A model generated the notes under the pieces. That model was given only the letters and a program-made list of their open reading frames with translations, was not told where the DNA came from and searched no databases. From an uncultured Prochlorococcus sp. (lineage in GTDB: Bacteria; Cyanobacteriota; Cyanobacteriia; PCC-6307; Cyanobiaceae): 64,000 bases of DNA. Where the stretch lies: positions 124,001-188,000 of the forward strand of contig CACFCB010000001.1 of assembly GCA_902564695.1 (NCBI GenBank), written 5' to 3'. The translations under genes and the position numbers were made by a program. Positions 27,644 to 37,490 of this stretch are shown here, in pieces. Within the stretch, counting starts at the first letter, position 1. Every line of letters begins with the position of its first letter.

Positions 27644-27675
27644 GGGACTCTGATTGATTTTGAGTCCCTTTTTTT
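27644..27675 (+). terminator. Rho-independent terminator after HU gene
   Basis: GGGACTC-TGATTGATTTT-GAGTCCC followed by T7. Confidence 0.85.
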
Positions 27676-27704
27676 GTAAAAATAGAGTTATTTTTTAAAA
27701 AATA

Positions 27705-27734
27705 AGAGTTTTTAGTGAAATAACTAAAAACTCT
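27705..27734. repeat. 12-bp perfect inverted repeat / second hairpin downstream of HU gene
   Basis: AGAGTTTTTAGT-gaaata-ACTAAAAACTCT followed by ATTTT. Confidence 0.75.
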
Positions 27735-27768
27735 ATTTTAACAAATATAAATTGCAGAGCTTATTTAA

Positions 27769-36380: not shown

Positions 36381-37490
36381 CTAGCCTTGAGAGGCTTTTC
36401 TTGATTCAAATTTGTTTGGGGGCTGATCATTGGAAGCTTTACTAAACACCATCCGGCCAGTTGGTGTTTGTAATGCCCCAGTTACAACTACTTCTATTCT
36501 TTTACCGATCCATTGGAGCCCCTCCTCGATAACAACCATTGTTCCATCCTCAAGATAGGCAATACCTTGAGAATTTTCCTTACCTTCTCTAACTACTTTT
36601 AAATTTAGCTTTTCACCAGGTTGAACTTCAGGCCTTACTGCAAGAACTAAATCACTTAGATTCAAAACTTTTATCTCTTGCACTTGTGCAACCTGAGACA
36701 AGTTGTAATCAACGGTTATTAGTATTCCTGATATGTCTGAAGTTAATTTTAAAAGAACTTCATCTGTTCCTTCTCCTTCGTATTTTGTACTATTTATTAC
36801 TAATCTTCTTCCATAACTTTCTCTTAGTTGGTTTAACAATTTTAGTCCTCTTCTTCCTTTTCCTCTCTTTTCGCTATTGCTTGAATCAGCTAGTTTTTGC
36901 AGTTCATCCATTACAGATTGGGCAACAATTAGTTGACCTTCTATTAATCCCAAACTAAGCAGAGCCTTTATTCGACCATCAATTATTATACTTGTGTCTA
37001 AAATTTTTGCGCTGGCTGGAGTTAGTATTCCATCTGCCATTAATAAAGATTCAGTGCTATTTGGATTGAAAAGACGAATAACAGTTCGACCATGAACATC
37101 AGCAAGGTTGTATCCAAGAACCCCAAAGAAAATATTGCTAAGAACAGCAAATATAGGTTTTACAAAAAATAATTCAGTTGGTAAAGGTAATAATAGTACA
37201 GGTACTAATAATAAGGTTGCTATTAACAGACCAAGAACAATGCCAACTGATCTACTTATTAGTAAATCAGTTGGCATTGTTCTTATTCTTGTTGTTAATT
37301 TATTTTTAAATTGCTGAAAAAGAAAAGCTATTAAAAGACCTACTAAAGCTGTTAATCCTGATAAAGCAATTTTTAAATTTTTTAGATTAGTAATTTGATC
37401 TAAAGTTTCTTGAGGTAACCAATTGACCCCAATCCATCCGGTGATTGCACCTGAAATGAGAAATAAAACCAGGATAACTAGATCTGCCAT
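36381..37490 (-). CDS. membrane-anchored PIN/TRAM domain protein
   Basis: N-terminal TM helices, ILDTSIIIDGRIKALLSLGLIEG (PIN), ITVDYNLSQVAQVQ, C-terminal TRAM-like VVREGKENSQGIAYLEDGTMVVIE. Confidence 0.9.
   Translation of the reverse strand: MADLVILVLFLISGAITGWIGVNWLPQETLDQITNLKNLKIALSGLTALVGLLIAFLFQQFKNKLTTRIRTMPTDLLISRSVGIVLGLLIATLLLVPVLLLPLPTELFFVKPIFAVLSNIFFGVLGYNLADVHGRTVIRLFNPNSTESLLMADGILTPASAKILDTSIIIDGRIKALLSLGLIEGQLIVAQSVMDELQKLADSSNSEKRGKGRRGLKLLNQLRESYGRRLVINSTKYEGEGTDEVLLKLTSDISGILITVDYNLSQVAQVQEIKVLNLSDLVLAVRPEVQPGEKLNLKVVREGKENSQGIAYLEDGTMVVIEEGLQWIGKRIEVVVTGALQTPTGRMVFSKASNDQPPNKFESRKASQG
37233..37284. repeat. 19-bp perfect inverted repeat within the PIN/TRAM CDS
   Basis: AAGAACAATGCCAACTGAT (37233-37251) and ATCAGTTGGCATTGTTCTT (37266-37284) are exact reverse complements; a further TACT/AGTA pairing sits inside the spacer. 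Confidence 0.97.

Follow-up and report, generated by a model that had tools for sequence, protein, structure and literature searches.

A coding palindrome in a Prochlorococcus PIN/TRAM gene whose arms probably evolve in concert through template switching

A near-perfect 24-bp palindrome lies inside the gene for a membrane-anchored PIN/TRAM protein of an uncultured Prochlorococcus sp., and we interpret it as a coding palindrome under concerted evolution that is kept perfect by recurrent template switching, i.e. by quasipalindrome correction. We give this interpretation a probability of roughly two in three. It builds on the pairing of the arms, their covariation, a near-neutral silent rate, the single copy of the hairpin, its presence without insertion and the absence of SbcD.

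The window, i.e. the whole stretch of 64,000 nucleotides that was analyzed, carries the host gene on the minus strand at 36381-37490. The open reading frame encodes 369 amino acids with Pfam matches to TRAM (E=2.5e-6) and, at the cut-off, to PIN_4, and orthologues were found in 91/99 related genomes searched. Downstream on the same strand are two ORFs that were assigned to the ClpP family from the sequence by eye. An earlier note on this DNA had described two exact 19-nt arms, which are present at 37233-37251 and 37266-37284, and had extended the stem inward past a bulged base. The inward extension is correct, but there is no bulge, as the C/A mismatch of the plus strand corresponds to a U-G wobble when the coding (minus) strand is read. 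In the mRNA the stem is therefore formed by 24 continuous pairs, including one G-U, with a 4-nt AAUA loop. In mRNA orientation the stem has as its 5' arm AAGAACAATGCCAACTGATTTACT (minus strand, 37261-37284), which begins at the third base of codon 69 and extends to codon 77; the 3' arm (AGTAGATCAGTTGGCATTGTTCTT, minus strand, 37233-37256) ends with codon 86 and covaries with the 5' arm. The loop between them (AATA, 4 nt, minus strand, 37257-37260) differs among relatives.

This near-perfect inverted repeat is contained wholly within a protein gene and is the strongest in the 64-kb window by a wide margin, no other entry in the list of inverted repeats for the window coming close. For a 121-nt stretch of the mRNA the folding energy is -44 kcal/mol; compared with dinucleotide shuffles this gives z = -8.5, and none of 200 shuffles was as stable. 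The earlier note regarded a stem of this length in a membrane-helix coding region as unusual. In the complete relative G032, 24 bp makes it the longest in-ORF inverted repeat in 1.6 Mb; the next is 18 bp and the others are mostly 13-17 bp. It is the only repeat of at least 20 bp in coding sequence of these 1.6 Mb, i.e. the genome does not hold many long repeats, and the hairpin is single-copy there. Elsewhere in the window, two imperfect inverted repeats (I2 and I8; 27673-27745) overlap, have one arm in common and could form alternative hairpins.

The arms pair in a register that places codon position 3 opposite position 3 (phase 3 in the terms of PMC6649704). The leading dinucleotide of every codon is then paired with that of a partner codon, and the peptide must therefore be symmetric. 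The conserved peptide RTMPTDLLxSRSVGIVL shows the corresponding partners (R-L, T-V, M-I, P-G, T-V, D-S, L-R and L-S), and RTMPTDLLISRSVGIVL has in full the symmetry that the third-third register requires. The plus-strand ORF at 37108-37317 in the ORF list, and the near-identity of its peptide to that of the sense strand, were as described in the earlier note, and antisense matches of a similar kind occur in many members of the genus. The likeness of the two peptides follows from the register and the symmetric peptide, and is a by-product of the palindrome. We saw no evidence of a second gene and rejected an antisense gene at this position.

A symmetric peptide could by itself bring about much of the pairing. 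To this extent the hairpin might be a chance product of a palindromic peptide and codon bias, inherited by descent, in particular as the peptide and AT-rich codons alone yield about 17/24 pairs and no other register is as common as third-third in the short coding hairpins that were checked. Redrawing the codons of the window sequence from the same genes with the amino acids fixed gave 17.1 +/- 2.2 pairing positions of 24, and the observed 24 was reached in 0/400 draws. The 52-nt hairpin fold likewise deviated from the codon redraws (z = -3.9). The stem is thus far stronger than codon-shuffled controls, a comparison that the earlier note had named as part of its refutation. Inheritance alone is in addition excluded by repeated matched changes on the gene tree (see below), and we consider chance very unlikely.

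Upkeep of the hairpin was analyzed across the Prochlorococcus genus of the window (LLI/NATL-like), with 31 distinct stem-bearing genes from about 30 related species. Orthologues were gathered by protein searches; a 70-nt DNA search of the genus recovered few of them, because the arms vary. Despite varying third positions the 31 genes retain 19-24 of 24 pairs, mostly 23-24, although several members have 2-5 broken pairs and a weaker stem is seen in, for example, L023, L026 and L030. Substitutions have occurred in complementary pairs that preserve the repeat. The pair T74-S81 is found as A-U, U-A, G-C and C-G, and the pair T71-I84 as U-A, A-U and G-C. At the codon level, one pair reads ACA..ATT, ACT..ATA or ACG..ATC in the genus, a second ACA..TCT, ACT..TCA, ACG..TCC or ACC..TCG, a third CCA..GTT or CCC..GTG and a fourth GAT..AGA or GAC..AGG. 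In the codon alignment (A2) 95.7% of the cells are paired and six pairs have changes on both sides, and 18 cells changed on both sides as compared to 4.0 +/- 1.6 after shuffling (0/500). All five covariation measures from this alignment exceeded the shuffles, four of them at 0/500 and the number of pairs at 2/500, whereas slid registers gave only 32-45% pairing.

Co-changes were then counted on a gene tree built without the hairpin columns. The pairs 71-84, 73-82 and 74-81 showed five co-changes each, the maximum possible, with pair 74-81 being Watson-Crick in only 77%. This co-change ratio is matched by 0.47% of the other site pairs of the gene at similar distance, a gene-wide null that retains relatedness and local recombination. 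The earlier note had proposed an alignment of orthologues as a refutation, in which the peptide is kept and the complementarity is not. Within the genus this fails, as covarying synonymous changes keep the complementarity; outside the genus the peptide is retained and the outer stem is lost.

The same alignment bears on two further explanations. A palindrome within an open reading frame could be an inserted mobile element of the Rickettsia palindromic element type, but the 52-nt region aligns in the genus without gaps, the peptide is conserved across the family and the hairpin is single-copy in 1.6 Mb, and we give an insertion next to no weight. Dyad symmetry is also what would be expected of a long operator bound by a sequence-specific protein. 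In this case the arm sequence changes freely while complementarity stays, which is the opposite of a sequence-specific duplex site and makes such an operator extremely improbable. A chimera from single-cell amplification was rejected, since the hairpin is present in six single-contig relatives (G002, G011, G019, G025, G032 and G033). A 20-nt match to the inner part elsewhere in G008 (L111) does not represent this hairpin and looks like chance.

The earlier note had suggested an mRNA hairpin affecting expression. As a functional structure under purifying selection it could slow ribosomes between transmembrane helices, or provide a site for a double-strand-specific RNase that sets the message level of PIN/TRAM and of the downstream Clp genes. 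This is in line with a very stable stem well beyond codon-shuffled controls, with covariation of the sort normally taken to prove RNA structure, and with a stem early in the gene that is followed by two ClpP-family ORFs on the same strand. Among the features expected of a functional RNA, covarying pairs were indeed found, but neither a reduced silent rate nor an excess of G-U over A-C. Slowing of silent substitution at paired sites was looked for on the gene tree and none was found: the silent sites of the hairpin had 43 changes overall as compared to 41 expected, and the 4-fold sites in the arms had 6, 5 and 9 changes as compared to a mean of 4.79 at 91 other sites. The arms have thus been homogenised without slowing of neutral sites, as in quasipalindrome correction. 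Intermediates on the mRNA strand were 5 G-U and 10 A-C, and this lack of preference for G-U is expected if the process acts on DNA.

To compare selection and copying we simulated both on the gene tree with a simple model (4-state sites, one selection coefficient). Selection that holds pairing at about 96% left the sites almost frozen (about 1.3 changes per pair). Conversion at about 30x the mutation rate gave about 10.4 changes, 4.5 of them shared. The observed pairs 71-84 and 73-82 have 11 changes, 5 shared, and are 97% paired, which simple selection models fail to reproduce. With so simple a model, the evidence from the simulation is strong but not final. The silent rate, the simulation and the unbiased intermediates all favor arm-to-arm copying over selection. 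In addition, outgroups have a degraded outer stem or none, some members of the genus have a weaker one, and a search of Rfam gave no family at threshold; its two sub-threshold matches scored 23 and 22 bits, where the gathering scores are 100 and 142, respectively. An RNA function is not needed for the data, and we consider a selected mRNA hairpin unlikely.

Copying and selection may also act together, if template switching gives the matched double changes and weak selection on the stem prevents decay of the palindrome. Such a combination corresponds to the model for RNA genes in PMC8794818, and of the coding hairpins the longest has been preserved much better than any other. On the other hand, no evidence requires the selective part and several members of the genus tolerate 2-5 broken pairs, and we regard the combination as less probable still than the selected mRNA hairpin. 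Recurrent template switching, with no need for selection on the stem, is the explanation we prefer. The earlier note had as its other suggestion a template-switch scar, and template switching was the better half of its guess; the matched changes recur on the tree, which points to recurrent correction and not to one scar.

The preferred mechanism can be outlined as follows. With a peptide that is symmetric at the first two bases of its codons, the arms could become perfect complements in which third positions face third positions. When the stem is long enough, a stalled polymerase could, inside the hairpin, move to the nascent or the opposite strand and use one arm as template for the other, and each silent mutation in one arm would then be erased or copied to the partner arm. 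In this way the palindrome would stay perfect while its sequence drifts, and no function would be needed. That the copying takes place by template switching during replication is our interpretation of the pattern of changes. Inversion of the loop, by which some template switches are recognized, was not seen.

The genetic background of the genus may contribute. A model search for SbcD, which provides the nuclease activity of SbcCD, a complex that cleaves hairpins, gave no match in 41/41 genus genomes, while the same model matched 13/14 control genomes and scored above the cut-off in three other cyanobacteria tested. Loss of SbcCD may thus let the palindrome persist, and might favor the copying. 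Absence of Exonuclease I (PF08411) is uninformative, as it is absent in 12/12 cyanobacteria tested but also in 13/14 control genomes.

The outer stem appears to be younger than the inner part. RTMPTDLL and SR(S/A)VG are conserved across the family, so both arms encode conserved protein sequence. Outside the genus the outer stem is absent or degraded while the inner peptide is conserved, and residues 84-85 are almost always L-I there and I-V in the 31-gene clade. I-V is what arm 1 would template at these residues, which fits a template switch that extended an inner palindrome of 14-17 bp. L050 and L051 read GGA-TTA-AT(A/T) where the clade has GGC-AT(T/A)-GTT, the form matching arm 1; yet L068 already has GGC-ATT. 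The palindrome was probably extended in the ancestor of the genus, with LI changed to IV in the protein, a timing that rests on the tree built without the hairpin columns. Given GGC-ATT in L068, the outer stem may possibly have formed in several steps. Third positions in the inner stem of outgroups matched in 24/36 for continuous stems and in 24/45 for others, which is not significantly higher (p = 0.26). A bolder interpretation, for which we have more doubt than confidence, is that of a self-perpetuating DNA palindrome in SbcCD-less bacteria that copies itself from arm to arm, has stayed perfect genus-wide and made its symmetry complete by rewriting two residues of a conserved protein (LI to IV). 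It would be a selfish element of sorts, one step short of a mobile one, and would give rise to RNA-like covariation without RNA function.

Other coding palindromes were examined in G032. The second longest in-ORF hairpin (G032:C1:1256566-1256603, L228; 18 bp, 2-nt loop, third-third register) lies in an unrelated gene, for an HlyD-type membrane-fusion protein (adaptor). It keeps 17.5/18 pairs across 26 genus genomes with matched synonymous changes (e.g. AAT..ATT, AAC..GTT, AGC..GCT), and its tree statistics are moderate, the best pair sharing 4/6 changes (95th percentile). A palindrome in atpB, for ATP synthase beta (G032:C1:1463609-1463644, L285; third-third register), is perfect with different sequences in L288, L300 and L302 and decayed in others. 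Like the atpB case, two further hairpins, of 17 bp (14-nt loop) and 13 bp (8-nt loop), are not clearly maintained. Strong statistics thus come from one hairpin only, the 24-bp PIN/TRAM case. Among short palindromes in coding sequence, with stems of 9-13 bp and loops of at most 20, there were 0 matched double changes as compared to 37 single ones in a comparison of two genomes (G032, 1.6 Mb; G033, 0.4 Mb) that included few long hairpins. Any copying must therefore depend strongly on length, and a long stem with a short loop seems to be required for maintenance. The longest palindromes in the 1.6 Mb are intergenic and perfect, 30 and 28 bp with 2-nt loops (G032:C1:358169-358230 and 685630-685687); the former resembles a bidirectional terminator and the latter has no obvious role.

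A close parallel is found in the mitochondria of Nematomorpha (PMC6649704), where perfect inverted repeats lie in protein genes, both arms code for conserved protein and the arms evolve in concert, and where the authors also weigh conversion against function. Here the palindrome is on a bacterial chromosome, with one main case of 24 bp as compared to dozens of up to 284 bp, and its phase 3 register is depleted among their long repeats; moreover, about 30 species permit event counts on a tree and a test of the silent rate. In E. coli, quasipalindromes are known to be made perfect by template switching (PMC7202029), one arm of an imperfect inverted repeat being copied from the other during replication (PMC7202029; van Noort et al. 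2003, as cited in PMC6649704). There the process is known from reporters and genome statistics, whereas here one conserved gene would preserve a long history of recurrent correction in nature. Template switching has also been argued to maintain hairpins, and under that model compensatory changes span several bases and stems become perfect without passing through slow intermediates (PMC8794818); it concerns RNA genes with functional pairing, while the present stem is in a protein gene and there is no sign that it matters as RNA. In yeast coding genes template switching homogenises the arms of inverted repeats and can swap neighboring amino acids in one event (PMC8604942), there between strains of one species and here recurrently over a genus. 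Rickettsia palindromic elements, as cited in PMC6649704, are also palindromes inside bacterial open reading frames; by that account they are inserted and repeated and lose arm identity over time, in contrast to the single-copy, non-inserted palindrome with retained identity described here. A review of false covariation (PMC11234323) treats non-structural covariation in coding exons, and neither template switching nor gene conversion nor inverted repeats came up in a term search of it. An earlier report of such a bacterial case may exist, our search having covered open papers.

Covariation in a stem is widely taken as proof of selected RNA structure. Here a textbook covarying stem in a protein gene evolves at a neutral silent rate, and arm-to-arm copying of DNA fits it better than selection. 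The silent rate together with the symmetry of G-U and A-C offers a simple test separating copying from selection. The hairpin would document quasipalindrome correction as it occurs naturally on a bacterial chromosome, with a testable link to the loss of SbcCD in streamlined marine cyanobacteria.
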